Source: Acidobacteriota bacterium
GTDB taxonomy: Bacteria > Acidobacteriota > Blastocatellia > Pyrinomonadales > Pyrinomonadaceae
NCBI GenBank assembly: GCA_020199835.1
Contig: JAIVJV010000010.1
Span: 1 to 64,000 of the forward strand
Length of the DNA: 64,000 bases
Direction: 5' to 3'
This document shows positions 1,108-16,984 of this stretch, one piece after another. Below the pieces are notes generated by a model. The model was not told where the DNA came from. It saw only the letters and a program-made list of their open reading frames with translations, and ran no database searches. How positions within the stretch are numbered: the first letter of the stretch is position 1; each line of letters begins with the position of its first letter. Position numbers and translations under genes: made by a program.

Positions 1108-3522
1108 CTATGGACGGAATGGAGTATTCGGGGGCCAAGCCGTTGCCCGCCCATTTATCGTGACGCTATCCTTACGAACCTGACCGTTGAGACTGGCTAA
1201 TTTCACGATGCCCCTACTGAAGCTCCCGCACCAATACCAACCCCAATTTATATCGTACCCGCAGTTGGCGGGACCATTACCCGAACCGCACCCAGGGGAA
1301 ACAGTCTCAATAAATGTCCCGGTCGCAGTGCCAGTCGTAACGGTCGGGGCACATCCTGAAGCCTGCGGTTGCCCGTTTCCGCAAGTATTGTTGGTCACAC
1401 TGGCAAATTGTTCTTCAACAGGAACGTTGCCCACCGGTCCAGCTCCATTTGAGTCTTGTGAGACGACCTGGAAGTTTATCTGGCGAATAAAATACTGTGT
1501 CGCGCATTGTCCTCCGTTAGGGAGTTGAGTTGTAAAGCCTTGCAGATCTTGAAGAACTATTAAATGGTCTGGTGAAGCTGCTACCTGAACCGGGCTATTC
1601 TGGATGATCTGCTCGCTACTCTCTTCACAGACATAGGTGCCCAGCTCAAAATTGTAAACCGACGTGTACGAATATACCTCCCACTGCGCCGTTATAGTTG
1701 CCGTTCCGCTGCTTATAGCGGTGACATCAGCGTCACTTCCGATCCCGCTGACACCTGCGACGTTTGGATTAGTAGTGGTCCACAAATCTCCTACGTAGTA
1801 AGGAGGCGTCAATCCGCCGTAGCACGTGCGATCGCGCTGGACTCCTCGAAAAGTGGTCACATCGCCGGTAAAAATGTCTAGTGATACAGGATCGATCCAC
1901 GTGTTTCTAACGCTATTCGGACAGCACATGTGACACGCGTAACTGCTGCTGATTCCCTTTACTAAATCGACTTGCTCGGAACGCCCGAGCAGGGCTAAAG
2001 AATCAGGGCCTCGCACCGACCAGATGATTTTGCCGTGCTTAGCCTCCAAGGGAATTCTTCCACCTCTCTCATCCGGTACCTGGTTATCCCTCATCGCCCG
2101 CACGTCAAAAACTACGGTCTCACCGACTTTGATGGTCTTCAATCCAACAGAGTAATCTCCGCTCTCATGCGTTAAGCTGAAGGTGTACTTCTGCTCGTTC
2201 TTCGACACGTTTTTGATGTAAACATAAGTCGACGAACCGCCTTCTATGAACCAGGGATATCCGCCCGTGCCGTTTCGCTGTGCCGGAACGTCCCACATCG
2301 GAATTCTGAATACTTGATTAGCGTCAGTGCTTACGGTTTCTGCCGCCATTACGACGCTCCCGGGCGCAGTCGTGTAGTCGAACTCAATGCTCGCCGCAGC
2401 AATCTTTTTGGAGCGAATCTCTCTTCTGATTGCCCCCTCGACATCCAGGCTAGCGGCCTCGCCCGGATTTAGACGCGCCTTCGGCAGTTGCGCGACGCCG
2501 ACTGTGCCGTCCGTCATTGTGTAAGGCAAACGGCCTGTTAATTCAGTCGGCTCGGTTCCGACATTACGGGCGACGACAACGGGCGTTAGCTGTTCGCCTG
2601 TAGCCGTTGAAAGCCTCAGACCTGCGCCCTGATAAGCTGAAGACTTCCCGCCTTGCGGGTAATAGAATTGTGCTGAAAAAGAGTAGCCGGAATTCTGGTC
2701 CTGAACGAGAGCGCGTGCGATGAGAGCGCCATTCGCCTCAGTGTGATGAACAGACGCGCTGCCGACATCATCTTTGAATCCTGCGGCTGCATCACCCTTC
2801 TGCCGATTGACGTTGATAACTCTCGTTTCGTGTGGCGCAAGGGTGAGATCAACTGCTTGCAGATGAGGCGTGCCTGCATTTAATACTGCGTTCGCCGATA
2901 CTGTTTGCTCGCTCGTGTTTGACAATATAAGACTGACGTCTGAATGCCTGGAAGGCAGCCACCACACGCTCTCAAGTTGTGTAGAAGGAACTCTTTTGAA
3001 TTCAACCAGCTTCTCGTCGAAGCTCACACTCCTCGTTTCGTCAACCAGGTAGAGTTGTGCACCGATAACGAGGTCTGGTCCGCTATGAAATAGCTGCAGG
3101 CTGCCCTCGTCAAAGGGAGTTCCAGGCAATGCCCCAAACTCTCGGAGGTCAAAATTACGGAATGACTCTCCTTCTACCACCACGGGCGCGGCTTCTAACA
3201 TCCCGCCCGAAAGGCTAAAGAGCGTGGGCCTGACTTCGACAGGCTGAGGGCCCTTATTGTTCAGCATCAAGGTGGCATTTAGATTATCGCCTACCTTGTA
3301 GTAAGAGGCTGCTAAGAAATGAGGCTGGTCTATATCTTGCCCGCAGCAGAGTTTCGCAGCCTTAGCGGGTTGCGCGTTATCAACGATCTCTTTTCGCAGA
3401 CGACTCTTAATCAAGAAGGTCGAAACAGAAAACGCGAGTAAAAGAAGAAGGAGAAATAGAGCGATGTCGAATCGTGAGATGTTGGAAAGGCTGCGAATCG
3501 GGTGAGATTTACTATTTCGCAT
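1108..3522 (-). CDS. Membrane-anchored surface protein with Ig-like (BIG2-type) segment
   Basis: About 804 residues. I place the start at ATG 3522 because GGAGA lies at correct spacing; an in-frame ATG at 3537 has none. Residues about 20-40 form one transmembrane helix after a short basic N-terminus, leaving most of the protein outside. The body is beta-rich and has a Cys-rich part (CHMCCP, later several NxCG motifs). Around residues 580-620 an NPNVAGVSGIGSDADVTAIS stretch followed by GTATITAQW looks like a bacterial Ig-like group 2 repeat. No enzyme motif is seen. It is probably an envelope or adhesion-type protein, and the family was not recognised. Confidence 0.6.
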   Translation of the reverse strand: MRNSKSHPIRSLSNISRFDIALFLLLLLLAFSVSTFLIKSRLRKEIVDNAQPAKAAKLCCGQDIDQPHFLAASYYKVGDNLNATLMLNNKGPQPVEVRPTLFSLSGGMLEAAPVVVEGESFRNFDLREFGALPGTPFDEGSLQLFHSGPDLVIGAQLYLVDETRSVSFDEKLVEFKRVPSTQLESVWWLPSRHSDVSLILSNTSEQTVSANAVLNAGTPHLQAVDLTLAPHETRVINVNRQKGDAAAGFKDDVGSASVHHTEANGALIARALVQDQNSGYSFSAQFYYPQGGKSSAYQGAGLRLSTATGEQLTPVVVARNVGTEPTELTGRLPYTMTDGTVGVAQLPKARLNPGEAASLDVEGAIRREIRSKKIAAASIEFDYTTAPGSVVMAAETVSTDANQVFRIPMWDVPAQRNGTGGYPWFIEGGSSTYVYIKNVSKNEQKYTFSLTHESGDYSVGLKTIKVGETVVFDVRAMRDNQVPDERGGRIPLEAKHGKIIWSVRGPDSLALLGRSEQVDLVKGISSSYACHMCCPNSVRNTWIDPVSLDIFTGDVTTFRGVQRDRTCYGGLTPPYYVGDLWTTTNPNVAGVSGIGSDADVTAISSGTATITAQWEVYSYTSVYNFELGTYVCEESSEQIIQNSPVQVAASPDHLIVLQDLQGFTTQLPNGGQCATQYFIRQINFQVVSQDSNGAGPVGNVPVEEQFASVTNNTCGNGQPQASGCAPTVTTGTATGTFIETVSPGCGSGNGPANCGYDINWGWYWCGSFSRGIVKLASLNGQVRKDSVTINGRATAWPPNTPFRP

Positions 3523-4493
3523 TGTATCTCCATGCAAAGCCGATCGAGAGGAAACTCGTACTAGCTACCCGTTGGTTAAACCAACCCGCTATTTTGGTCG
3601 CCGGACTTTATCGGCGAGCGCCGGGAACATACAAGTGTTGATTTGGCTTGCCCGGGTTCCCTGGGAGGTGAGCGAATTGAACACCGAGGCGGAAAGAGAA
3701 TAAGCCTTGTATTTAAAGGAATCAACAAATTTCTCAAACAGCAGTGCGAATCTGAATGTTGTGGCGTCGCTGTTTCGCAAAAACGGAAATCTCTAGTAAC
3801 TCGTGGCTGCGATCGCGGGAGGCTTACAGAGCCACATCTGAATCGCACTTCGCGGTCGAGCGATCGAGGCCAAAACTGATTGAATTACGTGAATAAGACG
3901 GTCCACGAGAAGGCAGGTTCTTTCGCCTGCTTCCAGGCGGGCGCTCACTTTATGTCATTGCACGATAACCACTCCATGACACCGCTCCGACTAATGAAAC
4001 GGAGCCACGCGGCATCATCGAAGCACGCGAGGAGGTTTTAGAAGCAGCAGTGAAATACTTGAAGAAAGAAACCATATCAGCAATTCAACGATGAAACTCA
4101 CGACGCAATCTGTGTCGGAATCAGATTCATTGAGACCCTGGGTCAATTAAATGAAAGCTCGCTTAAAGTTTCAGACAGCACATGTCTTTAGCTATTGACT
4201 CTCGATCAATTTGGGAATATTGTGCGCTCACTTGCTGAAGTAATTTGAGTACCAGCTCAAGAACAAATGTGTGATCGGTCAGTCCTCCAAGCCTGCAGCC
4301 GCACACTTCTCCGGCATCAGCCCAGAACCAGTCTAAAACCACGAATTCTGGGGCAACAATTTTGAACTACTCTGTGGCTAACCTTGGCTGCCCCTAAATA
4401 GGTGTCTTATGAGCCGGGAACCAGCCAGGTGCTCGCTCGTTTCGCAATAGCAAACGCATCTAGCGCGGGCAAGAAAATTGGATCGTTAACAAT
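3523..4493. other. Long intergenic region, no convincing gene
   Basis: About 970 bp between the divergently transcribed surface protein and the sigma-54 activator. Short open frames exist (for example 3589-3780 on the minus strand, 63 codons), but none has a ribosome binding site or a recognisable motif. A possible sigma-70 promoter for the activator is listed separately. The length and low coding density are compatible with a decayed gene or an insertion scar. Confidence 0.4.
4195..4223 (+). promoter_or_regulatory. Possible sigma-70 promoter upstream of the sigma-54 activator
   Basis: TTGACT at 4195-4200 and TATTGT at 4218-4223 are separated by exactly 17 bp. It points toward the activator gene but would leave a leader of about 260 nt. 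A chance match cannot be excluded. Confidence 0.3.
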
Positions 4494-5576
4494 ATGGCTA
4501 TCGGACGGCAAGCTGGTCCCCGCAAACGGCGAAACGTGTCCGCACCCGATCGGGACCACAACGCTGCAGTGCCGGCGCTAGAAGATGTGGGCGAGTTCGC
4601 TTTGCTCTCCATGATCGGCTCCTCGCCCATTTTTAACGAAACCGTCAGACGAATGGGGCGAATTGCGATGCGCGATGCGTCCGTATTGATTGAAGGCGAG
4701 ACGGGTTCCGGAAAGGAGGTGGCAGCGAGAGCGATTCACTACCTTGGTGCACGACGCGGCAGGCCGTTCATTCCCGTGAACTGCGGCGCTGTTCCCGATT
4801 CGCTAATCGAAGCCGAATTTTTCGGCCATGGCCGCGGCGCCTTTACGGATGCGCGCGAAGCGCGAGCTGGTCTCATTGCACAAGCGCACGGCGGCACCTT
4901 GTTCCTCGATGAAATCGACTCGCTAACACCCAAGGCCCAAGTCGCATTATTACGATTTCTGCAAGATCAAAAATACAAGCCCATAGGGCGCGACGTCGAA
5001 CTTGAAGCAGACGTGCGCATCATTGCCGCTACCAATAAATCTCTCATCGCACTCGCAAACAGCGACCGGTTCCGAACAGATCTTCTACACCGCCTCAGGA
5101 TTCTCTACTTGTACATTCCCCCGCTGCGCGAGCGTGAAGGGGATGCCGAAATGCTTGCGCAGCACTTTCTGCGGCATTACCTCAAAAAATACAATCTGCC
5201 TCCCAAGCGATTCGCTCCTGAATCACTTCGCTGGATAGGCCAGCACCGGTGGGAGGGAAACGTGCGCGAGTTGGACAATGCCGTCCATCGCGAAGTTGTT
5301 CTTGCGGATGGCGACGTGATCAGATTTGACGTTGCGAACAGTGAGACAAAGCCCACCCATCCAACAGTAAATTCGAGCGCTGACGACTACGCTACACTCG
5401 ATTTCCAGAGCGCCAAGGCGAAGGCAGTCCACGACTTCGAACGCGGTTACCTCACCCGAATTCTGCAAATTGCTCATGGGAATGTCAGTGCTGCTGCGCG
5501 CATCGCGGAAAAAGAGCGGCGCGCGTTTGGCAAGCTCCTCAAGAAACACCAAATCAGCCGCGAGCAGTTCAAGTAA
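4494..5576 (+). CDS. Sigma-54-dependent transcriptional activator without sensory domain
   Basis: This is a 360-residue bacterial enhancer-binding protein. It hydrolyses ATP to remodel sigma-54 RNA polymerase. Visible parts: a short basic N-terminus (1-35), the AAA+ sigma-54-interaction domain (about 40-275) with Walker A GETGSGKE (68-75), loop 1 GAFTDA (115-120, where the canonical motif is GAFTGA), Walker B GGTLFLDEID (133-142), sensor II around GNVREL, and a Fis-type helix-turn-helix at the C-terminus (AHGNVSAAARIAEKERR). Like PspF it has no receiver, GAF, PAS or FHA domain, so the signal must come through another protein (inference). The gene directly precedes two sigma-54 promoters and three palindromes that are its likely binding sites. 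No strong Shine-Dalgarno is seen before ATG 4494. Confidence 0.93.
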   Translation: MAIGRQAGPRKRRNVSAPDRDHNAAVPALEDVGEFALLSMIGSSPIFNETVRRMGRIAMRDASVLIEGETGSGKEVAARAIHYLGARRGRPFIPVNCGAVPDSLIEAEFFGHGRGAFTDAREARAGLIAQAHGGTLFLDEIDSLTPKAQVALLRFLQDQKYKPIGRDVELEADVRIIAATNKSLIALANSDRFRTDLLHRLRILYLYIPPLREREGDAEMLAQHFLRHYLKKYNLPPKRFAPESLRWIGQHRWEGNVRELDNAVHREVVLADGDVIRFDVANSETKPTHPTVNSSADDYATLDFQSAKAKAVHDFERGYLTRILQIAHGNVSAAARIAEKERRAFGKLLKKHQISREQFK

Positions 5577-5581
5577 ATCAA

Positions 5582-5603
5582 AGTGGGTGAAGAATGACCC
5601 ACT
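5582..5603. promoter_or_regulatory. Likely enhancer (UAS) palindrome 1 for the sigma-54 activator
   Basis: Perfect inverted repeat AGTGGGT-N8-ACCCACT starting 6 bp after the activator stop codon. Its centre is about 52 bp upstream of the -24 GG of the promoter at 5643. The same half-site and the same 8-bp spacing recur at 5952 and 6042. It has no T-tract, so a terminator is less likely. Confidence 0.7.
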
Positions 5604-5642
5604 CCCCTCCCGAATCCGAATCGCAATAGGTGATTTCGGTCT

Positions 5643-5658
5643 TGGTACGTTTTGTGCT
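5643..5658 (+). promoter_or_regulatory. Sigma-54 (-24/-12) promoter for the 92-residue gene
   Basis: TGGTACGTTTTGTGCT matches the consensus TGGCACG-N4-TTGCW at most positions. The invariant GG (5644-5645) and GC (5656-5657) are separated by exactly 10 bp. The predicted start of transcription is near 5669, 13 nt before the GTG at 5682. Confidence 0.65.
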
Positions 5659-5681
5659 GCCTCCATTCAGCACCAATCGAC

Positions 5682-5960
5682 GTGAACAACGAAAACCGAA
5701 TACAGATTGAACGTCTTGTTCTCCAGATCGCTGAATATCTGGCTCGCAATCCAATGGCGGCTGATACGCTCGCCGGGATTCAGAGTTGGTGGTTATCAGG
5801 AGCAATGCGCAATGTTCACAGCAGTCACGTTAAAACCGCGGTCCGCCTGCTCGTGCAACGAAGAACGTTGCAGTGCAACATCCAGTCGGACGGTACGAAG
5901 ACCTACTCACGTGCAAACAGTGGAATCTCCGCGCGGCGATCCGATCACGTCGGTGGGTAA
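5682..5960 (+). CDS. Small protein of the sigma-54 locus, possibly winged-helix-like
   Basis: 92 residues from GTG 5682; the upstream in-frame ATG at 5652 lies inside the sigma-54 promoter and is ruled out by it. The pattern (helix RIQIERLVLQIAEYLARNP, then ADTLAGIQSWWL, then VKTAVRLLVQRRTLQCNIQS and DGTKTYSR) suggests helix-helix-helix followed by a beta-hairpin, as in small winged-helix folds. The family was not recognised. It lies between the activator and the protease operon, with its own -24/-12 promoter and a palindrome upstream. Because the activator has no sensory domain, a regulatory partner role is possible (inference). The stop codon overlaps palindrome 2. Confidence 0.6.
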   Translation: MNNENRIQIERLVLQIAEYLARNPMAADTLAGIQSWWLSGAMRNVHSSHVKTAVRLLVQRRTLQCNIQSDGTKTYSRANSGISARRSDHVGG

Positions 5961-5973
5961 ATTTCAACCCACG
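5952..5973. promoter_or_regulatory. Likely enhancer (UAS) palindrome 2
   Basis: GTGGGT (5953-5958), 8 bp, ACCCAC (5967-5972): same half-sites and spacing as the copy at 5582. It overlaps the stop codon of the 92-residue gene. Its centre is about 185 bp upstream of the -24 element of the protease-operon promoter. Confidence 0.65.
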
Positions 5974-6041
5974 TATTAACAACCCCTGCTCTCGTCACAT
6001 CGGGGACGTTCCGAACAGGGCAAGCGCTTTGAAGGTGCTAA

Positions 6042-6063
6042 ACCGGGTCTTGCTTGACCCACT
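6042..6063. promoter_or_regulatory. Likely enhancer (UAS) palindrome 3, imperfect
   Basis: The right half ACCCACT (6057-6063) is complete; the left half ACCGGGT (6042-6048) matches AGTGGGT at 5 of 7 positions, again with an 8-bp spacer. The centre is about 95 bp upstream of the -24 GG, a usual enhancer distance for sigma-54 promoters. Confidence 0.55.
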
Positions 6064-6145
6064 CTACTTCAACTGCCGTTTGTTCCGCTCAAGCCTATCG
6101 AACGTTTTGTTCACAAATTCTCCAACTTGGTCCATGCGCGTGTAC

Positions 6146-6161
6146 TGGTACTGCGCTTGCT
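6146..6161 (+). promoter_or_regulatory. Sigma-54 (-24/-12) promoter of the protease operon
   Basis: TGGTACTGCGCTTGCT fits TGGCACG-N4-TTGCW closely: the TGG, the AC at positions 5-6 and the whole TTGCT block match, and GG (6147-6148) and GC (6159-6160) are exactly 10 bp apart. Predicted transcription start near 6172, about 11 nt before the ATG of the S8 protease. Confidence 0.75.
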
Positions 6162-6182
6162 CGTGATGTGAAATCAAGTGAT

Positions 6183-7505
6183 ATGAAACCCCACATCACA
6201 TTAACGTTGCGGACCCCGTTGCAACGCGTCGCGCTGCCTTATTGGGTTGATGCGATCACGCAAGCGCACTTGCGCAGCGCGCAATTTTTCCCAGCAGTCG
6301 ATGCACTGTTTGCAAGACATAACCTTGCCTTCACGGCAACCCATGAGTACAGGCCGGCTGGATCGGTTTGGTCGCCGCAGGAAATTGCAACCGGCTTCGA
6401 TCGCGTGTACCGACTGGTGCTCCAATCGGATGTCAGCATTCCAACGGAGCTCATTCAATCTATCCGCGTGCTCCCGGAGGTGGAACGCGTTCACGTAGGC
6501 GCTATCGCCGAGATGGATTTGCAACCGCCGTATGCGGAATCGCTGAGCGTGCGCACCAATCGCGCGTCACGCGACGCGATCTTTCTGGACGAGGCACATG
6601 CGTTCAGCGAGGGCGATGAGGCCATCACGGTGGCGATCCTCGATACAGGCGTGGATTGCGATCATCCCGAATATAAAAATGCACTGCTCCCCGGCTACGA
6701 CTTCGTCGACATACTGGACGGCGCAACCGAATTCATCGGCGATTACCTCGGCGCCGATGCCATCCCGGAAGACGAAGTCGGTCACGGCACCCATGTCGCG
6801 GGCATCATCACGGGAAAAGGAAAGAACATGCCGCGCGGTGTTGCACCGCGCTGCCGCGTTCTGCCGGTGCGCGTGCTGGCGGCGATGAACAAGGACGGCC
6901 GCAAAGTCGGCGCCGGTTCCGTCGAGAATATTAACAACGGCGTTAAGTGGGCCATCGATAACGGTGCGGACGTGATCAACATGTCGCTGGGTGTACGCCA
7001 CACTGGCGGTGGACTCCCGCATAAAGAAGTTATCGAGTACGCGCAGCGTAAGGGCGTGACGGTGGTCGCGGCGTCGGGAAATGACGGACGGCAGGAGTTG
7101 TACTACCCGGGCGCATTTCCGAGTGTGATCGCAGTCGGCGCGGCCGATGACGAGGGTAACGTCGCGGAGTTCTCGACGTTCGGCGATCAGGTGTCCTTCA
7201 TCGCCCCGGGTGTGGACGTGTACAGCACTTCCATCGAAGACGGCTATGCGTTTTCCACGGGGACTTCTCACGCCGCGCCGTTCGTTACCGGCGCCGTTGC
7301 GTTGATGAAATCCTTTGCGCGGTCACAAGGCCACGACCTCAAAGATTCTCAAGTTAAGCACGTGCTCAAACACACAGCCGACAAAGTGGATCGCAATTTC
7401 AAGGACCGTAAAGCGGGATATGGCCGGCTCAATGTCGCTGATGGTCTGCGTTACCTGGATTACAAGCTCAACTCGTCAAGGAGAACGTCCCATGGCTACC
7501 ACTAA
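6183..7505 (+). CDS. Subtilisin-like serine protease (S8), no signal peptide
   Basis: 440 residues from ATG 6183; the frame is open further upstream, but that stretch contains the -24/-12 promoter. S8 catalytic residues are all visible: Asp154 (AILDTGVD), His201 (GHGTHVAGI), oxyanion Asn300 (AASGND) and Ser362 (GTSHAAPFV). Residues about 75-115 (LVLQSDVSIPTELIQSIRVL, then PEVERVHV) resemble an inhibitor-I9-type propeptide, so self-processing is plausible. There is no signal peptide or transmembrane helix, which suggests cytosolic activity or a non-Sec exit. It is the first gene of the sigma-54 operon and overlaps the next gene by 14 nt. Confidence 0.92.
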   Translation: MKPHITLTLRTPLQRVALPYWVDAITQAHLRSAQFFPAVDALFARHNLAFTATHEYRPAGSVWSPQEIATGFDRVYRLVLQSDVSIPTELIQSIRVLPEVERVHVGAIAEMDLQPPYAESLSVRTNRASRDAIFLDEAHAFSEGDEAITVAILDTGVDCDHPEYKNALLPGYDFVDILDGATEFIGDYLGADAIPEDEVGHGTHVAGIITGKGKNMPRGVAPRCRVLPVRVLAAMNKDGRKVGAGSVENINNGVKWAIDNGADVINMSLGVRHTGGGLPHKEVIEYAQRKGVTVVAASGNDGRQELYYPGAFPSVIAVGAADDEGNVAEFSTFGDQVSFIAPGVDVYSTSIEDGYAFSTGTSHAAPFVTGAVALMKSFARSQGHDLKDSQVKHVLKHTADKVDRNFKDRKAGYGRLNVADGLRYLDYKLNSSRRTSHGYH

Positions 7506-8211
7506 AAGGCCGAACTCAGGCCCGTCTAATAAAAAGAATCGCTACACCGATCTGCTGACAGATGTGCTTCCACCAAATGTGGGAACTAGCCGTGTAGGAA
7601 CAAGCGGCAGGGAAACTCCTTCACGAACAACGGTGCTTCCTGCCGATTTGATCGATTTTGATGACGAGAAACTTAAGGTTGGCTGGCGGAAGATCATTGA
7701 CAGTCAACGCAAGGGCGTCGAAACGGACGTGCTTAAAATCTCACCGCCACGCGCGAAACTTGATCCGATTGCGAAGAACGCGTTGGAGGACCTTCGCGCA
7801 AAGTTGGTCCACAAGTCGCCCTTGGACGGATCGGCTGAAGCGGGACCGCCGCAAAACCTTGAAAAGTACGTGCGCGGGTTTATTACCAGGAGAGGTATCG
7901 CCAGCGAAGTGAAGAGAGTCACTGATCGGCTCAACGCCCGCCGGATCACCGATGGCCGGCGCTGGGTACTCGCGACGACCTACGAGTTCATATTGGCAAA
8001 GTTATTTCAGGATCGAGGCGACGAGCTGGAAGAGTTCATCAAAGACGATCTCGGCGTCGCGGAAAAAATCCTGCTCGAGCTGGATTCTAAAGGTGGTCCA
8101 CTCGATGTCTTCGTCAATCTGATCGTCAACTCGGTGATGAAGCGCAACCGTATCAACCCGAGCAACACGCTTCGCGAAATCGTATCGCAGCAAGTCCGCG
8201 CCGCGATCTAA
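7492..8211 (+). CDS. Unknown helical protein of the protease operon
   Basis: 239 residues. The start is ATG 7492 because AAGGAG lies upstream at 7479-7484; longer frames run through the protease. It is basic and Ser/Thr-rich up to about residue 45, then mostly alpha-helical (LDPIAKNALEDLRAKLVHK, a WVLATTYEFILAKLF helix, DDLGVAEKILLELD). No signal peptide, no catalytic motif, not recognised. Translation is coupled to the S8 gene by the 14-nt overlap, so it may be made in proportion to the protease. Confidence 0.75.
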   Translation: MATTKRPNSGPSNKKNRYTDLLTDVLPPNVGTSRVGTSGRETPSRTTVLPADLIDFDDEKLKVGWRKIIDSQRKGVETDVLKISPPRAKLDPIAKNALEDLRAKLVHKSPLDGSAEAGPPQNLEKYVRGFITRRGIASEVKRVTDRLNARRITDGRRWVLATTYEFILAKLFQDRGDELEEFIKDDLGVAEKILLELDSKGGPLDVFVNLIVNSVMKRNRINPSNTLREIVSQQVRAAI

Positions 8212-8224
8212 TGGGAGAATGACC

Positions 8225-9448
8225 ATGATTAATGGAAACTCACGCACTGTATCCCTGGCCCCGGGCGGTCTCGAACCCGCCGTACTCCACATCATCGACC
8301 GGGTCAATGAGCAAGCACAGTTGCCGGTGTTCGTGGACATGTACATCCAAAACTCGGGGATCGCTGAAGACCGCTTCACCCCCGAGGTGCGCGCGGCGAT
8401 GGTGGATTACCTTCGCGAACGCGGCGCTGAATTCGAAAGCATCGATGCAGTGCTCGAGCGGGAGTACGACGAGCTGTTTGCGTTGGCATACGAAAACGCC
8501 ATCACTCGCAAGGCCGGTCGTGACGATCCAATCGACGCCGCGCACCAACCTGGCGGCGGTGCGATTGCAGCGGGCTGGGACTTCAGTGTGGATCTGTTCG
8601 ACGACGTCGAGCAGCAGGGTGTTGTCCGCGACAATATTCTGGCCGCCGGCGCGATCGATTACATCTACGAGCTCGGCGAACACATGGGCGTGTTCCGTCT
8701 CGTGGACGCGTTGGTATTGAACTGGGCCAGTGGTTCGATCGACGTGGTCGAAGGCGATGTCGTTTCACGCATGTACCGTTACTGGAAGCTGCGCGATCAG
8801 CGCATGTCATCCGAAGAGCGCGGCATGGTTTACCGCCGAGTGCTGAACAAGGGTGAAACCGACGTCCTCGATCGCATGGTCGCGAACGAGGAATGTCCGA
8901 ACCTGTGGCACAACCTGATGGCCGAGGTCGCCGACTACATCGACAAGACGGAACGGGTGAATTTAGGATCCAGCGAAAGTTCTCCTGTCTCACGCGCGCG
9001 CATTTTCCAGGCTGTGCGTGACTTGCAATACAACCTCACCGAGTACTGCACCGGCATGGCCCACATCCAGGCGCGCGAGCTTTATGCGCAACTTCAGGAA
9101 TGTGTCGAACTGCTGCGCGATCCGGACGTCCTGGCGTATTTCGGCGGCAACCGGCGCAAGAGTCTTTGGACTGTCATTGAGAAGATGTCGAAGCAGGAGT
9201 TTGGCGGGAGCCCAAATATCGCAGCGCTGCGCTCGCTCGCAGTCGATGGAAACACCATCTTCCGTTTTGTCGCCGACTTCACCGAGGGGGGCGTGAGGCA
9301 GGAAGAGTTCGCTCGTTTCCTGGATGCGGCCGAGTCATACATCCTGAATTATTCGACAGTCGGCGGCGACATGTCATCGATGGAAGAAGAAGACGGGGAA
9401 GAGAGCACCGAATTTGATGAGGAGGATGAGGAGTTGGATGAGTTCTAG
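8225..9448 (+). CDS. Unknown helical protein with acidic C-terminal tail
   Basis: 407 residues from ATG 8225, chosen because GGGAGA (8213-8218) is 6 nt upstream; ATG 8219 would touch it. The protein is largely helical, with many Asp/Glu and Trp/Tyr-containing helices, and ends in a highly acidic tail (about the last 22 residues are mostly Glu/Asp). No signal peptide, transmembrane segment or known motif. The acidic tail could be a binding tail for the very basic neighbours (inference). It starts 13 nt after the preceding stop and is followed after 55 nt by the next gene. Confidence 0.75.
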   Translation: MINGNSRTVSLAPGGLEPAVLHIIDRVNEQAQLPVFVDMYIQNSGIAEDRFTPEVRAAMVDYLRERGAEFESIDAVLEREYDELFALAYENAITRKAGRDDPIDAAHQPGGGAIAAGWDFSVDLFDDVEQQGVVRDNILAAGAIDYIYELGEHMGVFRLVDALVLNWASGSIDVVEGDVVSRMYRYWKLRDQRMSSEERGMVYRRVLNKGETDVLDRMVANEECPNLWHNLMAEVADYIDKTERVNLGSSESSPVSRARIFQAVRDLQYNLTEYCTGMAHIQARELYAQLQECVELLRDPDVLAYFGGNRRKSLWTVIEKMSKQEFGGSPNIAALRSLAVDGNTIFRFVADFTEGGVRQEEFARFLDAAESYILNYSTVGGDMSSMEEEDGEESTEFDEEDEELDEF

Positions 9449-9503
9449 GCTCCTCTCTCGTAACCAGCCCGAGTAGAAAATCAATTAACACGGGAGTTCA
9501 CCG

Positions 9504-10601
9504 ATGAGCGAATCGCAAGCAATGAAGGACCTGGCCCGCAGCTACGCGCGCGACGAGTTAATGAACCTGCCGACTTTTCGGCAACTAGGCACCGACGATC
9601 AACGTGCGCTCTATCGCGATGTTTACCATCGCCATGTCAATCGGCTGAGCCAACCACGGACCACGGCACGGGCATTCGCGGACCCCAAGAATGCGGGTGA
9701 GATGATCAATGACCAGCGACACCTCAACCAACGCATCGATCAGGCGGGCGAGTTGGCCGGTGGCTTTGTTGATGAAGTCGATTTTCCAGGGTTCGTAAAA
9801 GATCTATTGAAAGGCGTGTTCGATGCCAACCTGAAAGTCACTCTCGATCAGATGGAGGCGTACCAAAAACTGTTGAAGGCAGCAACGCAATCCCTGACTG
9901 CGTTCATGAGCAAGATCAAGCCCGAAGCTGCGTTTGGCTATTTGGCCGATAACAGTAGTGACGAGTTTGGCCTGTCGTTCAGCGAGAATGAATCCGACGA
10001 GGAGGGCAATAAGAAAGTCGTCCTCACGGACAAGGAAGGCAATGCCGTCGATACCGAGGATTCGCGCATCAAGTCGCGCATCATGGATGCGACATTACAG
10101 ATGGCACGCGAACAACGAGCGATGTTGCGCGAAACCATTCTGATGGGCATCACGCGGCTCGTCGTGGAAAGAGGAAACGTCAAAGCCTCGGTGTTATTCG
10201 ACATTAAAGCGAAGGAGCAAATCCAGAAGGGAGACAAGGCGGCACTCTCAGAACAGGTTGCCAGGAGCAGGAGCATCACCGCCAGCGGCGGGTTTCTTGG
10301 CTCGATCATAGGCGGCCCGTCCGGTGGCGGGACCAGCAGCGAGCGGAAAACGAAGTTGAGCGTCTCGTCGGCCAAGAGCGTCGCGAGCACGGAATTAGCC
10401 GCAAAGATCACAGGCTCCGTGGACATCACGTTCAAATCCGATTATTTCAAACTTGATAATTTTGCGGCGATGTATGGACCACTCGGTGGTGCCGGTGGTC
10501 CTGCACCGACAGCAGCAGCACCGGGAGCCGCGCCCGCCATGGCTCCAGGAGCAGCGCCGGCCGTTCCAACCGCGCCTGCTGGCGTGACTGCTCCGCGCTG
10601 A
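9504..10601 (+). CDS. Unknown protein with Gly-rich hinge and Ala/Pro-rich tail
   Basis: 365 residues with a good Shine-Dalgarno (GGGAG before ATG 9504). The N-terminal half is helical (residues 1-150) and residues 150-195 are acidic. Around 255-280 there is a Gly/Ser-rich hydrophobic stretch (SGGFLGSIIGGPSGGG), then a beta-like segment, and the last 35 residues are a low-complexity Gly-Ala-Pro tail. The tail and hinge resemble flexible linkers of structural or surface proteins. No family recognised. It is separated by 9 bp from the next gene. Confidence 0.75.
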   Translation: MSESQAMKDLARSYARDELMNLPTFRQLGTDDQRALYRDVYHRHVNRLSQPRTTARAFADPKNAGEMINDQRHLNQRIDQAGELAGGFVDEVDFPGFVKDLLKGVFDANLKVTLDQMEAYQKLLKAATQSLTAFMSKIKPEAAFGYLADNSSDEFGLSFSENESDEEGNKKVVLTDKEGNAVDTEDSRIKSRIMDATLQMAREQRAMLRETILMGITRLVVERGNVKASVLFDIKAKEQIQKGDKAALSEQVARSRSITASGGFLGSIIGGPSGGGTSSERKTKLSVSSAKSVASTELAAKITGSVDITFKSDYFKLDNFAAMYGPLGGAGGPAPTAAAPGAAPAMAPGAAPAVPTAPAGVTAPR

Positions 10602-10610
10602 TGAAACTCG

Positions 10611-12803
10611 ATGGCACTCGCGCTGCTTTGGGCTGAAACGCTGGAGGACGACGTATCCGCGTCAAGGCTGCGCTTTGACATTGGCCACAATCACTACTAC
10701 GTATGGCAACTTGGAGATCAAGGGCGGATCAACACCAACGGCATAGCGCGGCTGGCCAACGTCAAACAGCGTTCGCGCATGTTCGGTCCATTGCGTGAGA
10801 GCGCACGTGGCCGCGGGGTCCTGGAAATCCCGTCCGAACTGATGTCGAAAGAAGATCGGTTCGTGCAGTTGATAAGTTTTCGGACCGAGGGCGGTGCAGG
10901 CCCGGCCATCTCGCCAATAGTCGAGATGGATTGGACCAAAGCGCGGGGTAACGTGGAACGGTTGCCCGACATGGACACCCTGCCCGCGCTATTCGCAATC
11001 GGACGGAGCGCTACGAGACCACGGCGGGTGGCCGGCGCACTAAGTAAGGCGGATGGAGGCTTCACAGTGGCTTTAGCACAAACGTATTCATCCACGCCCG
11101 CGCGGATACAGCCCGTGGACGCGGCGCCTTTACGCTGGCGCGAACGCAACCTGAGCCAGGGAATGTTTCTTGGCGGACTGCTTTCTTCGCTCATGCCGAC
11201 TCTCGCGCCGGTCATTGGCAATGTGTTAACCAGCGCCGCTCCGGCGATTGGTCAATTCATCGGCGGCTTGTTGCCGGGTGCATCGGGTGGCGGCGCCGCA
11301 GGCGCGACCGGCGGCGCGAGTGGCACTCCCGCTAATACGCAGCTCACTCAATTGATCCAACAGTTGGTGCGCAGCATTGGTGGCGCTGTTGCTCCCGCGA
11401 CACCCGCGACCCCCGCCGCAACCCCGACAACGGCCACTGCGCATTCGCTGGCCTTCGGTTCGCTCGGCGCGCGTGTCGCGCGACAGGCGCCTTCCAGGTA
11501 TTCCTTTTCACACTCGGCGAGAAAGCGCGCACGGCGCAATCCGCGCGTCGTGCAATACGCGCAGGCACAAGACTACAGCCAGGCAATGATTGCGCCTGCT
11601 CTCCTCGCTGCCCTGCCGGCGTTGATGCCTGTATTGCAACAAGTATTGTCTCCGCAAACCATTCAAACCGTCCTCGACGCGCCGCAACGCGCTACCGGCC
11701 AGATCATGAACGGTTTGATGGATTTTGCGCGAATCGGTATGCAGGCCACTGAACAAGAACGTGCGCATCTGCGTCAACTTAATCCCGGTGTTGATGATCC
11801 CGCGCTCCACCAGTTGTTGATGAGCATGAGTCAGGGCGTCGCGGCAGCGCAGCGCTTGAACTACCGTCGCGTTGCGAGTGTGAAACTGAGTTTTGACGAC
11901 GCGCAGAGCCAGATGCTGTTCGGCCGCTCGCGCGTGTTGTATCGCAGGGACCGAGCGCTGCAATTTCCCCTGAGTGTGATCACGCCGAAGACGATTTCCG
12001 CCGCCCGGCTGGTGTTGCAGATCAAGCATCCGGACACCCTGGCGGTGCTGGTCGAGGACAGCGAGGACGTCGGCGAACTGTCCAGCGGTCCAATTCCTCT
12101 CGTGCCGCGCATTGATGAAGCAATGACTGCGCGCCTTGAGCCGAATCAGGATTACATCGTGATGGTGACGCTACTCTGGAAGAACAAGAAGAAGCAGCAA
12201 GTCGGCACCTCGATGCAACAGCGCATCACGCTGATCGGCGAGTATTCGTTTGATCGGGTGGAAGAAGGCGGCGAGCAGGTTGCGACTTCGGACTTCGAGC
12301 AATACCGCGACCTGTGGCACAAAGTCTGGCAGGGTGAGTTCAGCACGGGTGCGCACGCTGCCCGTCTCGACTGCCGTTACTATCTCGTCCTTAATCCAAA
12401 ACGCACCAACAACGCGCGGCTCGATACGCATGTCAAATCGGACAACGGCAAACTCGGCGGCAAACTCAAGACGGGAATGGAGTACAGCCCGTACGTGTTG
12501 AACCATTTGCTCACGCGCCTCACGCCCGAATCCACGCCACTCAGTGACGCTGAAATTGAAGCGCTATGCGGCAACGACTTTGTCGAGCGTTTTAATCAGG
12601 CTGCTCAATTCAGCGGCAAGTTGAAAGGCCGGCGCGGCGAAAGCGGCGCGTTGTGGGTGTATCCCGAGTTCAAGATCCAGACGCTCGTGTTGACTCGAGC
12701 TGAAGACGTAGACGAGAACGGCAATGTACGCACGCTGAACGAAACACGGGTGCGTTTTCCGATGCCCGTGATGATGCACTTCGTAGGAGTAAAAGGCGCA
12801 TGA
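10611..12803 (+). CDS. Unknown 730-residue protein with two hydrophobic segments
   Basis: Residues 1-180 are beta-rich. Residues about 185-223 are hydrophobic, Gly/Ala/Pro-rich and nearly uncharged (FLGGLLSSLMPTLAPVIGNV and onward), followed by a Gly/Ala/Thr/Pro-rich linker to about 290. A second hydrophobic stretch (MIAPALLAALPALMPVLQQV) lies at about 326-345. The remaining 350 residues are a mixed beta-rich domain with many charged residues. There is no signal peptide. The two segments could insert in membranes or pack as a core (inference only). It overlaps the next gene by 4 nt (ATGA), so translation is coupled. Confidence 0.78.
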   Translation: MALALLWAETLEDDVSASRLRFDIGHNHYYVWQLGDQGRINTNGIARLANVKQRSRMFGPLRESARGRGVLEIPSELMSKEDRFVQLISFRTEGGAGPAISPIVEMDWTKARGNVERLPDMDTLPALFAIGRSATRPRRVAGALSKADGGFTVALAQTYSSTPARIQPVDAAPLRWRERNLSQGMFLGGLLSSLMPTLAPVIGNVLTSAAPAIGQFIGGLLPGASGGGAAGATGGASGTPANTQLTQLIQQLVRSIGGAVAPATPATPAATPTTATAHSLAFGSLGARVARQAPSRYSFSHSARKRARRNPRVVQYAQAQDYSQAMIAPALLAALPALMPVLQQVLSPQTIQTVLDAPQRATGQIMNGLMDFARIGMQATEQERAHLRQLNPGVDDPALHQLLMSMSQGVAAAQRLNYRRVASVKLSFDDAQSQMLFGRSRVLYRRDRALQFPLSVITPKTISAARLVLQIKHPDTLAVLVEDSEDVGELSSGPIPLVPRIDEAMTARLEPNQDYIVMVTLLWKNKKKQQVGTSMQQRITLIGEYSFDRVEEGGEQVATSDFEQYRDLWHKVWQGEFSTGAHAARLDCRYYLVLNPKRTNNARLDTHVKSDNGKLGGKLKTGMEYSPYVLNHLLTRLTPESTPLSDAEIEALCGNDFVERFNQAAQFSGKLKGRRGESGALWVYPEFKIQTLVLTRAEDVDENGNVRTLNETRVRFPMPVMMHFVGVKGA

Positions 12804-12982
12804 ACCCGAAACGAAAACAGCTTGGCTGGGCGCAAGAGACCGATGCCGTTCCGAAACTCGAGGGAATGGAGATCGAGTTTGATGAAAAGGTGACGTTGTT
12901 TCCCGTGGACCTGGAAGAGATTCGTGATGTCGTGCCGAAGAGGTCGCCGGGTGCAACGCGCAATGGCAGGGCGACGCATTGA
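12800..12982 (+). CDS. Small unknown protein of the protease operon (60 aa)
   Basis: Starts inside the ATGA overlap with the preceding gene and ends 1 nt before the next start. This tight fit is the main reason for accepting it. The composition is acidic in the middle and basic at both ends (NPKRKQLGW at the start, RSPGATRNGR near the end). No recognisable motif. Confidence 0.6.
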   Translation: MNPKRKQLGWAQETDAVPKLEGMEIEFDEKVTLFPVDLEEIRDVVPKRSPGATRNGRATH

Positions 12983-12983
12983 G

Positions 12984-13295
12984 ATGAATGAACTTGCGCC
13001 GTACGAGATCAGTCCCCTGGATCGTCTTCCGGCGCTCGCTGAATTCCTCGCTGAACTGGCGGGCGCGGCGAGTGGCGATCCGGATTTTGCAGGAGAGGAA
13101 ACGATTTGGATCAGTGAGATCAGACTCGACCTGCCGATTGAACTGGATTTGTTGGAGGAGTCGGGTGCGTGGCAGCTCGATGCGTCGCCACCCACCCAGA
13201 TAATTGAAACGTCGGTAATGCCGGTTTTGCATCGAGTACGACTCAGAGTGACGGTAAACAATGGCGAACGCAATCTCGAACCCGTGGAACCTTGA
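12984..13295 (+). CDS. Small unknown protein of the protease operon (103 aa)
   Basis: 103 residues from ATG 12984, one base after the previous stop codon; the longer frame from 12924 would overlap the previous gene. An acidic helical N-terminus (LPALAEFLAELAG) is followed by beta strands (ISEIRLDLPIELDLL, SVMPVLHRVRLRVTV). It overlaps the next gene by 35 nt. Not recognised. The strand pattern suggests a small beta-sandwich or adaptor domain. Confidence 0.65.
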   Translation: MNELAPYEISPLDRLPALAEFLAELAGAASGDPDFAGEETIWISEIRLDLPIELDLLEESGAWQLDASPPTQIIETSVMPVLHRVRLRVTVNNGERNLEPVEP

Positions 13296-14031
13296 GAACT
13301 TTATCGATTCGCTCATTCTGGAACTCGATAAGGCTCAGGACACGCTCGCAATGAAAGGTCTGACACGGAAAATGACGTACGCCGTTAAAGACGTGGGGTT
13401 CGACCTGCACCTGTTTCCCACTTATGAAAACGGCAAACTCAAATTCCAGATGGCGAAGCCGGGCGATCAGGGTGGCTCGCGCATCTCGTTTCAGCTTGGA
13501 TCCATTACCGATCGCCAGATTCGAGAGTCCGGGAATGAGCCGCTGTCGCGCGATGACATCAGTATCGACAACCTGGAAGGTATGGACGACGAGGTGAAGG
13601 ATTCGTTGCGTAAGGTCGGAGTGCATTCTACTCGTGATTTGGAGAGGATGGACCAGCGCAACGTTAATGTCGAGAGAGTTGTGGAGAACAAAACGCAAGG
13701 CAAGAAGAAACTCGATTATAGCGACCTCGCCAACATGATTAACAAGGCGAAGCGGCGCAAGTTCGCGCCCCAGTTGTCGGCCGCGCAGGGACTGACTGGT
13801 GCAGAGGGGCTCGACCTGACGTTGCGCGGGCACAATTTCGTGCTGCCCGGCAATGATGACACTCGCTTTCCGATTGCGCTGCTCAATGGCGAATCGGTGC
13901 AGGTCGTTGCGGCGACGCACGACACATTGCGCCTCAAGGCGCCACAGCATTACCTCAAGCCTGGCGCTAACCGATTGTCGATCGCACTCGATCCTTATGC
14001 GGTAGTGAACATGGAGATCAACCAACCATGA
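13261..14031 (+). CDS. Unknown protein: beta domain + helix-hairpin-helix + IPT/TIG-like
   Basis: 256 residues. The N-terminal part (1-90) has one long helix and then a strand-rich region that looks loosely like small effector-associated beta domains. Residues 103-128 (LEGMDDEVKDSLRKVGVHST then RDLERM) have the pattern of a helix-hairpin-helix/DUF4332-like motif. Residues about 178-256 (LDLTLRGHNFVLPGNDDTRF, LKPGANRLSIALDPYAVVN) resemble an IPT/TIG-type immunoglobulin-like fold. This suggests a scaffold or adaptor. The assignments come from reading the sequence, and a profile search is needed for the N-terminal part. It overlaps the next gene by 4 nt (ATGA). Confidence 0.72.
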   Translation: MANAISNPWNLENFIDSLILELDKAQDTLAMKGLTRKMTYAVKDVGFDLHLFPTYENGKLKFQMAKPGDQGGSRISFQLGSITDRQIRESGNEPLSRDDISIDNLEGMDDEVKDSLRKVGVHSTRDLERMDQRNVNVERVVENKTQGKKKLDYSDLANMINKAKRRKFAPQLSAAQGLTGAEGLDLTLRGHNFVLPGNDDTRFPIALLNGESVQVVAATHDTLRLKAPQHYLKPGANRLSIALDPYAVVNMEINQP

Positions 14032-15152
14032 GCGCACGGTCATCCCGGTTACACGCATTGGAACGGGCCCTTAAATCGCCGGGTAAATCACGGGCCAAGG
14101 CCCGCAGGTTAACCGTGATGCGGTTTGAAGGCGCTTCCGCGCCAGCCGGCAACACGCGGCCCGCGGCTTTGCCCCCTGCTCGTTTGCCCAAAGACATGGA
14201 AGATCAAATCGCAATCGTGCGGGGTCGCGCCGTCGGCAAACCATCACGCGGCTTGATCCAGCTCGAAGAGCGCTTGCTACGACCGCGGGATACTGGTCCA
14301 ACAGCGGCGGCGGTTCAGCGCCATGATCATGGCGCGGTGCCGGTGTCCGCCGCTCCGATGTCGCAGCCACGTGTGCTGCCGCGGCAGCTGGCGGCGAGCG
14401 AGTTCGGTGGACGCTACAACGTGGAGTCGTTTGAAGACATGTCAACGATAACGGCTCCACGGCTGCCCACGTCCACACCCCAATTTAACGGAGGCACGAC
14501 ACCGGGCGCGATCTCCGCTCCCGCATTGCCTACAGTTCCACGTCCGGGAGTTACACCTTGCACTGAACCGCACGCGATTTCTCCGAGCGCACTTCCCGCA
14601 GTGCCAGAGCGCAGCGAGGCTCCCCGGCGGACTTCGCTTACTACCGATCAGGAAGCCGTAGCCGCGAACTTCGAGCGTGACGTTAGTGCGATGCTGGGTA
14701 CGCCAGCGCCGGCGGGCACACCCGAGAATCAACAATGGGACGACGCCTTGCGCAATGCGACAACCGGACCAACGGCAACACCTGCAACGCCGGTCGCTAC
14801 TCCGCAACCCGCGACGCCGAAGCAAGACCAACACGAAGTGTTCAATCAAATGGGCCTGGCGATGAACTATGCAAATAGCTTCGATCTCGGCGCGATGGAT
14901 ATCTCCGCGCGCTTTGATCGTTTTGACGAGGAACTTGCCCTCGCGCCGAAGCCTGCGGCGCAAACGTCCGCCGCTTTATCGTCGCCCGCCCCTCGTACTC
15001 CAGTGCAAGCTCTCTCGCTGGATGACTTTGATCTCGTAGAGGATTTGGCTGAAATCACTGGTGCTGCGCAGCCATGCCCTAACAAAGAAGACGCGCCCAC
15101 AGCAACTCCGACCCCTGCCAGCCCAGTTACAACTGAGAGGATGCAATCATGA
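14028..15152 (+). CDS. Pro/Ala/Thr-rich, probably disordered protein
   Basis: 374 residues. A basic N-terminus (SARSSRLHALERALKSPGKS) is followed by long Pro/Ala/Thr-rich stretches with repeated PALP and PATP-like elements, and two short ordered islands: LPKDMEDQIAIVRGRAVGKP near residue 55, and an acidic helical region around 265-305 (MGLAMNYANSFDLGAMDISA). It contains a FGGRYNVESF element also echoed as VRYNVEL before the second protease domain of the next protein. A linker, scaffold or protease-substrate role is possible (inference). It is coupled by ATGA overlaps on both sides. Confidence 0.68.
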   Translation: MSARSSRLHALERALKSPGKSRAKARRLTVMRFEGASAPAGNTRPAALPPARLPKDMEDQIAIVRGRAVGKPSRGLIQLEERLLRPRDTGPTAAAVQRHDHGAVPVSAAPMSQPRVLPRQLAASEFGGRYNVESFEDMSTITAPRLPTSTPQFNGGTTPGAISAPALPTVPRPGVTPCTEPHAISPSALPAVPERSEAPRRTSLTTDQEAVAANFERDVSAMLGTPAPAGTPENQQWDDALRNATTGPTATPATPVATPQPATPKQDQHEVFNQMGLAMNYANSFDLGAMDISARFDRFDEELALAPKPAAQTSAALSSPAPRTPVQALSLDDFDLVEDLAEITGAAQPCPNKEDAPTATPTPASPVTTERMQS

Positions 15153-16984
15153 CAAACCGCCTCGTCGATCTTGAATCCACCATCACTCGCTCTCACAAAA
15201 CGAAAGCCACACACCGGAACGGCAGGCGTCCGCCGGTTGCGCGCAAACCGCAAGGCGTGCTGACGCGGGTCGCCACCATGCCACCGCCGCCGGCTCCGTC
15301 GCTTTCGCCTGCGCCGGCGGTAGCGAAAGGATTGAGTGCCTTGGTCAGCAGGTGGCCGGCGCGCGCTGCCAGCAAAGCGCATGCGTTCGGAGCGGTCGAT
15401 TATACGGTTCCGGGACTCTTCAGCCCGCTGGCCCAACCACACTCCATGGCGTGTTGGGCCACCGTCTTTACGATGATGTGGTCATGGCGCCGGCAGCAAT
15501 CTTTGGACATCGAGACTTCGCTCGCTGCCCTGGGGCAAAGATGGCTGGATATGTATCGCGCCAATACTGGGTTGCCTGCTGAGGCCACAGCGGAGTTCAT
15601 GACTGCCGCCGGATTTGTGGCTGAACCACCGCGAAGTTATTCGGTCGAGGGATGGGAACAACTGCTGCGCAACTACGGACCGGTGTGGGTCACGACCGAT
15701 GAATTACCGGGTAAGGGTTGGGCCATCCATGCGCGGGTAATCACGGCCATATCAGGTGACGGCACGGCGGATAACACTTTTTTTACTATTGTTGACCCAA
15801 ATGGCGGACGCACGTATCGAGAATCGATCGCGGTGTTTATACCGAAGTACCAGGAGGAAGTAATTCAATCGGGCTACATGCGCATTCAGGTGGTCCATTG
15901 GTCCGCTGATGCGCGCGCCGAAGTGCGGGCGCAATCGTTCGGAGGTCGCACGACACGCGCTTCAGCCGCGCGGGCAAGTTCATTGTCCACTTCCTTTTCC
16001 GCGCCCAGCGTGGCGTTCGATTACTCCGGGGCACTGGCCGCGCATCGCCAGGCGTTGGCGCTGAGCCAGTCGTTTGATGTTCGGTACAACGTGGAGCTGG
16101 TGCCGCAGCAAACAGGTTTCTCCTGTTGGGCCGCGGGGTTCGCTATGATCGTTGGCTGGCGTGACCGCATGAGCATCAACCCTTCGGAAATCGCGCGCGC
16201 CACGGGCTACTGGGCACAATACCAGACCGGGTTGGATCCTGAGGACACTAGAGTCATGAGCACCTGGGGTTTAGTCGCTGAACTGCCTAAATCCTACATG
16301 ATCGAGGCGTTCGTGAATTTATTGCGCAGCTACGGACCACTATGGATTGCCAGTGCAGAGCCTGGTCCGCACATTCGGGTGGTCACGGGAATTCATGGCG
16401 ACGGCACTCCGGACGGGACCATACTGCATATCAACGATCCTTGGGAACAGGGCATGACGGCGTTCACTCCCACCAACCGCGGTTCGCAGTACACCGAGAC
16501 CTTCGCTCAATTTGAGCAGAAACAGGCCGAGTTGGCGATGCGGGAAACGGCCGTCGGAGCACCGATCTACGTCGCTCATCTTCCGAGCCTGCCGCTGTGG
16601 ATGAACAATCCGTTAGCGCAAAGTTTTTCGCATTACGTTGGCCGCCCACTGGCGATGGAAGCGCCCAGCAACCCGTCGAACTACCGGATGCTGACGTCGG
16701 GTATTTGGAGCAGTAACTCGACGCTGACGGTCCAGGGTGGTCAGGGCATGTGGTTCAAAATTCGTAACACGAACGTGTTAGGGACAACCATTCGAATCAC
16801 AGATCAGGCGAGACAAACCAAGCAGTCGATAATTTTGCCGGCGTCGAGTGTGGAATTTTTGTTCGCCATCTTTGGCAATGAACCGATGGGCTGGCGTTTT
16901 GATATCGCCACAGAAAGCGATGCCTTCATGGTAACGTGGGAGTTGTGGAGCACGTGGGTGCCAGGCATGCCGCCGAACGGATAA
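15149..16984 (+). CDS. Tandem papain-like (AvrRpt2/C70-type) cysteine protease
   Basis: 611 residues. After a basic Pro-rich N-terminus (1-80) there are two papain-like cysteine-protease domains. Domain 1: Gln97, Cys102 (SMACWATVF), His194 (WAIHARV), Asp216 (IVDPNGG). Domain 2: Gln320/321, Cys326 (GFSCWAAGF), His408 (GPHIRVV), Asp430 (INDPW). This Cys-His-Asp arrangement fits peptidase family C70, which includes the plant-pathogen effector AvrRpt2. Residues about 505-611 form a beta-sandwich-like C-terminal domain. No signal peptide is seen. It is the last gene of the sigma-54 operon and ends 24 bp before the convergent copper ATPase. Both domains keep the triad, so two active sites are expected. 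Confidence 0.85.
   Translation: MTNRLVDLESTITRSHKTKATHRNGRRPPVARKPQGVLTRVATMPPPPAPSLSPAPAVAKGLSALVSRWPARAASKAHAFGAVDYTVPGLFSPLAQPHSMACWATVFTMMWSWRRQQSLDIETSLAALGQRWLDMYRANTGLPAEATAEFMTAAGFVAEPPRSYSVEGWEQLLRNYGPVWVTTDELPGKGWAIHARVITAISGDGTADNTFFTIVDPNGGRTYRESIAVFIPKYQEEVIQSGYMRIQVVHWSADARAEVRAQSFGGRTTRASAARASSLSTSFSAPSVAFDYSGALAAHRQALALSQSFDVRYNVELVPQQTGFSCWAAGFAMIVGWRDRMSINPSEIARATGYWAQYQTGLDPEDTRVMSTWGLVAELPKSYMIEAFVNLLRSYGPLWIASAEPGPHIRVVTGIHGDGTPDGTILHINDPWEQGMTAFTPTNRGSQYTETFAQFEQKQAELAMRETAVGAPIYVAHLPSLPLWMNNPLAQSFSHYVGRPLAMEAPSNPSNYRMLTSGIWSSNSTLTVQGGQGMWFKIRNTNVLGTTIRITDQARQTKQSIILPASSVEFLFAIFGNEPMGWRFDIATESDAFMVTWELWSTWVPGMPPNG

Follow-up and report, generated by a model that had tools for sequence, protein, structure and literature searches.

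The window, a 64,000-nucleotide stretch of an Acidobacteriota genome (contig JAIVJV010000010.1, assembly GCA_020199835.1), carries an operon of ten packed genes, C to L (6183-16984), that opens with an S8 protease and closes with a tandem C70 cysteine protease. The eight proteins between the two, D to K, have no recognised family. A stand-alone sigma-54 activator, A, and a small gene, B, lie upstream. The features, with gene starts chosen among possible start codons, are as follows:

A, 4494..5576, + strand: stand-alone sigma-54 activator, AAA+ with a C-terminal helix-turn-helix, without a sensor domain
Promoter-like site, 5643-5657, + strand: sigma-54 type, TTGGTACG-N4-GTGC, between A and B, 1 mismatch to TGGYNCGNNNNTTGC
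B, 5682..5960, + strand: small basic protein, apparently outside the conserved unit
C, 6183..7505, + strand: S8 (subtilisin-type) protease without a signal peptide, N-terminal region conserved
D, 7492..8211, + strand: family unrecognised
E, 8219..9448, + strand: core protein, family unrecognised, C-terminal tail acidic
F, 9504..10601, + strand: core protein, family unrecognised
G, 10611..12803, + strand: family unrecognised, two hydrophobic Ala/Pro/Gly-rich stretches, predicted beta-sandwich at residues ~420-545
H, 12800..12982, + strand: 60-residue protein, conserved core (M/L)E(I/V)EF(D/N)(E/D)K(V/A)TLFPV
I, 12984..13295, + strand: small acidic core protein
J, 13261..14031, + strand: core protein, family unrecognised
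K, 14028..15152, + strand: Pro/Ala-rich protein, probably disordered, with short conserved motifs (MGLxMxYANSFDLG)
L, 15149..16984, + strand: tandem C70 papain-like cysteine protease, C-terminal domain of unrecognised type

A first-pass annotation had proposed this layout of activator, small gene and ten packed genes with ATGA overlaps, and gene calls and Pfam confirmed it. ATGA overlaps were found at G/H, J/K and K/L, and longer overlaps at C/D (14 bases) and I/J (35 bases); the widest gap inside C-L is 55 bases. Among A-L, the Pfam cut-off was reached only in A, where several AAA models match its AAA region, in C (Peptidase_S8, PF00082, 4.6e-54) and in L (Peptidase_C70, PF12385, 4e-87, two stretches). 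For D-K no Pfam or NCBIfam model scored over its curated cut-off (H was compared with Pfam only), as expected from the same annotation, to which these eight proteins were not recognisable. No middle gene was recognised in the library scans as a phage, injection or metabolic gene, again as annotated. Signal peptides were judged by hydropathy only, for all products. Over the N-terminal 35 residues, 10-residue hydropathy means peaked at 1.55 (G), and no product had a signal-like N-terminus, including C, which had been described as signal-less. A 19-residue mean above 1.6 was found in G only.

Residues D154, H201, N300 and S362 of C are invariant in six of six loci (the window, Ch67, HN01, HdN1, Tolypothrix and Burkholderia, all described below). 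We take D154, H201 and S362 to be the Asp/His/Ser triad and N300 to be the oxyanion Asn. L has a long Pro-rich N-terminus, and both of its residue sets, C102/H194/D216 and C326/H408/N429, are invariant in four of four loci; these are presumably the catalytic Cys-His-Asp/Asn of the C70 family. With catalytic residues kept in both, the two proteases, which are of different class as had been noted, look active.

The operon has a guanine-plus-cytosine (GC) content of 0.58, against 0.51 in the left flank and 0.547 in the right flank, and G is single-copy in the source genome. B was annotated as part of the locus and is present in the window, but it was not seen next to the operon in other genomes: its matches in the six genomes searched (G000:C7:70787 at 39%, weaker ones in G060, G439 and G059) do not adjoin the operon. 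Two paralogues of the protein encoded in the left flank (1108-3537) lie on contigs C11 and C13 of the source genome, which makes a chimeric contig unlikely at this point. Of 14 other genomes of the same genus, one has a match to this left-flank protein.

Conservation of the gene order

Homologues of all ten genes C-L were found in the same order in the gammaproteobacterial metagenome-assembled genome Ch67 (L004), Hahella sp. HN01 (L005) and strain HdN1 (L006). The S8-to-C70 synteny that the annotation had put forward as a check is therefore kept in four genomes, including the window. Identity to the window proteins across the three loci is 63-66% for C, 34-36% for D, 63-64% for E, 68% for F, 48-49% for G, 38-39% for I, 58-62% for J, 36-38% for K and 65-71% for L. 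H occupies the same position in all three, with an ATGA overlap with G and a readable conserved core. L was used as the query in one scan against named genomes, yielding four loci (L004, L005, L006, L007). The locus count is uninformative on how often L accompanies the other genes, because the loci were found through L. The fourth locus (Leadbetterella, L007) shares the C70 stretch only, in a different neighbourhood, and was not counted as a case of synteny. Its protein (L007:9110-10522) joins a stretch with an astacin-like motif to the C70 stretch, and appears secreted. Pairs of paralogous genes that look immunity-gene-like by eye lie upstream of the HN01 operon (L023:365-4197).

Part of the operon was also found on plasmids. 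E as the query matched four plasmid records, three of them cyanobacterial with identical scores and one a Burkholderia pyrrocinia megaplasmid. The order in Tolypothrix (L018) is alpha/beta hydrolase, S8, peptidoglycan-binding protein (PG_binding_1), E, F, G, a 436-residue protein, I and J. The order in Burkholderia (L019) is sigma-54 activator, DUF3467 protein, a 1254-residue Amidase_2-C92-C70 protein, a 361-residue protein, an 87-residue I-like protein, J, S8, E, a 350-residue protein, two F copies and a second E. The core common to both plasmids is C (S8), E, F and J; G recurs in five of the six loci, Tolypothrix included. C is 56% identical over 432 residues to the Tolypothrix S8 protease. 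Identities in Tolypothrix and Burkholderia are 45.7% and 28.4% for E, 37.2% and 26.2% for F (the two Burkholderia copies align), and 41.1% and 26.8% (4e-4) for J. G is 37.9% identical to its Tolypothrix homologue. For I the Tolypothrix value is 35% in the alignment (BLASTP: 43% over 56 residues, 1e-16), and the Burkholderia 87-residue protein reaches 23%, by alignment only. Two further Burkholderia proteins (L019:21107, L019:24881) were rejected as F homologues and removed from the revised F alignment. The hydrolase is a tandem C70 protein in the window, an Amidase_2-C92-C70 protein in Burkholderia, and an alpha/beta hydrolase with a peptidoglycan-binding protein in Tolypothrix. As judged from the contents of the plasmid loci, part of the gene set is constant and the hydrolase changes; the differing hydrolases may occupy one exchangeable functional slot.

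The system is rare in the genome draws searched. G as the query matched 3 of 59 genomes, namely the source and two of the same class with short, weak hits (2.7e-6, 6.2e-4), and had no match in 15 same-genus and 20 same-family genomes. The F profile matched 1 of 369 genomes of the class of HdN1 (HdN1 itself) and 2 of 396 genomes of the host phylum, the second being an F-like gene in G649. That gene (L036:539-2022) has a small neighbour, and no protease was found within the 3.5 kb read. The operon looks horizontally acquired. Its rarity, its slightly higher GC content and its plasmid-borne relatives give it the look of a mobile accessory trait.

Distant relatives of E were found in a second context. 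The E profile matched 3 of 299 genomes in the phylum of HN01 (HN01 and two others with a distant E) and 3 of 347 in the host phylum (the source and two others, at 3.2e-74 and 4.3e-7). In the four loci read (L024, L026, L031, L033), the distant E adjoins an HExxH-like protein or lies up to about three genes from one. The motif and the lack of an obvious signal peptide were both judged by eye, and no Pfam metallopeptidase matched these HExxH-like proteins in the four loci. An OmpA-domain protein occurs in two of the four, and L024 also carries a trypsin gene. These stretches (L031:4115-12514, L033:7175-12968, L024:7178-13214, L026:8458-13402) have the appearance of a second cluster type, and strongly acidic proteins were seen in the L024, L026 and L031 clusters. 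The rows for L024 and L026 in alignment A6 share just 20% and 22% identity with the window.

The activator and the middle genes

A matches Sigma54_activat (PF00158, 1.6e-58, above the cut-off) in Pfam, with no receiver or GAF domain. It is 46% identical over 228 residues to the activator of the Burkholderia locus. Its best genome-wide match in Ch67 and in HdN1 is the activator upstream of the operon, which suggests joint inheritance of activator and operon; its best match in HN01 lies on a different contig from the operon. An activator stands just upstream on the same strand in three of the six loci (window, Ch67, Burkholderia). The HdN1 activator is on the same strand about 6 kb upstream, separated from the operon by an insertion, a helicase-like gene group that runs the other way. 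By eye, this insert (L017:3421-9284, with a 912-residue helicase-like protein) looks like a defence element. No activator was seen in the Tolypothrix stretch. A sigma-54 factor gene was found in four of four genomes searched. By eye, A reads GAFTDA and the Ch67 activator GAFTGA at the presumed sigma-54 contact motif.

Matches of the middle genes to known families were limited to sub-threshold traces. J reached 19.8 bits against a cut-off of 20.9 for TIG, in Tolypothrix. Scanned row by row, the J alignment gave sub-threshold Phasin matches in four of seven rows and Trypco2 in one of seven (0.0097; 16.6 bits against a cut-off of 24.2); one of the seven rows (L024:11217-12068) is not J, and was rejected as a J homologue. 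Trypco2 was found in 0 of 39 genomes comprising the source genome and relatives. By eye, F resembles DUF2589. The DUF2589 profile matched 0 of 29 genomes, the control genomes also giving none, so this search is uninformative about F. When E, F and G were run as profiles against solved structures, no convincing match emerged; the G profile hit two BamA chains, at 0.0052 and 0.014, and the F alignment used still contained L019:21107 and L019:24881. The G model (m0090e78d7ac3) has block means of 58-83 over residues 441-540. Its beta-sandwich resembles many unrelated sandwiches at Z of about 9 to 10, with other parts of G hardly covered; this likeness shows no function, because many unrelated sandwiches score alike.

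Proposed function, rival explanations and known systems

We tentatively prefer the reading that C-L is a mobile operon for an inducible cytosolic multi-protein assembly, which may carry and mature a swappable, often cell-wall-directed hydrolase. The function, order of action and target that we infer are these. A signal would let A start sigma-54 transcription of the operon. E, F, G, I and J, which are signal-less and jointly conserved, would form a chassis. C would mature or release the effector, possibly by cutting the disordered K or the Pro-rich N-terminus of L. L would act outside the cytosol, on the envelope, other cells or an invader, as the peptidoglycan-directed domains of related loci suggest. 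A wider proposal is possible though doubtful: a new class of mobile conflict or predation machine, with an E-F chassis and a swappable hydrolase armed by a protease of exchangeable class (S8 or HExxH-like).

Several results weigh against the preferred reading of an inducible assembly. No exporter gene that would explain delivery outside the cell was recognised in the operon. The Tolypothrix proteins at the places of D and K (the latter of 436 residues) match neither D nor K, and no C70 was seen in that locus; neither G nor D was recognised in the Burkholderia locus. Structure prediction, which the first-pass annotation had recommended, was run on E and G from four-row alignments, and the models (mean predicted local distance difference test scores of 45.6 and 39.7) are too poor to help with mechanism. 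Of the annotated sigma-54 switching, the activator is there, and adjacent in half of the loci, but the promoter match is weak. Sites with one mismatch number 16 in the window against 12.63 expected, so the site at 5643-5657 means little by itself. In Burkholderia, the stretch from activator to cluster holds a one-mismatch site (L019:11247-11263), the best of 22 sites with up to two mismatches against 16.28 expected. Sites with two mismatches lie upstream of S8 in HdN1 (total 10 against 10.58 expected) and HN01 (2 against 4.16 expected). No promoter-like site was found between the activator and the operon genes in Ch67, and no activator in the 5.6 kb upstream in HN01, where the contig ends. With promoter matches near chance, sigma-54 control of the operon is putative.

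A close rival, itself rather unlikely, is intracellular defence or suicide. Infection or stress would activate the S8 protease, which would cut an operon protein; G or F would disrupt the cell's own membrane, and C70 would degrade host or phage proteins. All products look cytosolic and the distribution is rare and partly plasmid-borne, as such a system would have it. In PADLOC, C matches the subtilase (4.7e-28) and IetS (1.7e-7) models, but the S8 family is huge and the match may be generic; A matches activator models, D gave a trace (0.053), B, E, F, G, J and L gave none (H, I and K outside the run), and no anti-phage system was matched by a system-level gene set. A weak Trypco2 match in one J homologue points the same way, this domain having been reported beside trypsins of conflict systems (Kaur et al., 2020; PMC7159879), but it is below the cut-off and confined to one of the seven rows. 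No nucleoside triphosphatase (NTPase) sensor was recognised apart from the transcription activator, and a sigma-54 response would probably be slow for infection. It is improbable that the operon makes a cell-surface or cell-wall structure, with the proteases processing parts and E-J forming a filament, shell or envelope patch. The presence of coordinated small genes among conserved proteins whose fold is unknown, and the OmpA, PG_binding_1 and amidase domains of related loci, would suit such a maker, but signal-like N-termini and a recognised exporter are absent and C70 gave only a trace match to a FapD model (0.059).

We regard as still more improbable a stress or protein-quality operon under sigma-54, in which the two proteases are catalytic and the middle genes encode substrates or adaptors. 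Cytosolic proteases and a stand-alone activator without a sensor domain would fit it, but patchy distribution, plasmid-borne relatives and differing cell-wall hydrolases are ill-suited to housekeeping. That the operon derives from a contractile injection system or phage, as a remnant or a variant, is very improbable. Conserved middle genes of unknown fold are in favour of this, and so is EvpQ, a C70 protein reported as an injected effector. Against it, PHROGs (E-value up to 0.1; A and H outside the run) gave only traces for J (0.092, a family of unknown function) and B (0.039, a tail protein), nothing for D-G, I, K and L, and for C one protease family and one family of unknown function. Neither E nor F had a match in phage records; in viral contigs, 66 stretches fitted the E pattern and 139 the F pattern, none of them confirmed. 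No Pfam injection family (sheath, tube, baseplate) was found among A-L. At the sequence level, then, the homologues are syntenic and no parts of a known system were recognised, the two points on which the annotation had let its claim of a new system depend.

In the open-licence literature, supplements excluded, no description of this gene order was found. C scores highest among NCBIfam models with mycosin and PatA/PatG S8 proteases, but falls short of both curated cut-offs, at 206.6 of 278.75 bits and 131.4 of 421.05 bits, and no type VII secretion or cyanobactin genes were recognised in the operon. A resembles PspF-like stand-alone activators in its AAA+ and helix-turn-helix regions and in having no sensor domain, but none of the 25 NCBIfam models listed (of 33 matched) gives it a score above the curated cut-off, and no psp genes were recognised here. 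The C70 effectors AvrRpt2 and EvpQ share the papain-like C70 domain (PF12385); unlike them, L is a tandem C70 protein encoded together with an S8 protease in an operon of ten genes, in which no secretion-system gene was recognised. The conflict systems that Kaur et al., 2020, describe, of the multi-peptidase and trypsin/Trypco kinds, appear to be the nearest idea. Several peptidase classes per operon, papain-like and peptidoglycan-directed effectors and small partners are common to both. Those systems use trypsin or caspase where the operon has S8 and C70; their NTPase core was not found here, MoxR, vWA, VMAP, STAND NTPase, NucA and EAD being unrecognised and Trypco2 sub-threshold only. Here two proteases that look active travel with eight families that have no recognised relative. 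Should all these make up one machine, it would be a new protease-armed system and would give names and partners to many hypothetical proteins; the claim of novelty rests on finding no match in the libraries and literature searched, not on demonstrated function. The operon fits no described system that was found, and could be a protease-armed machine of a new kind.

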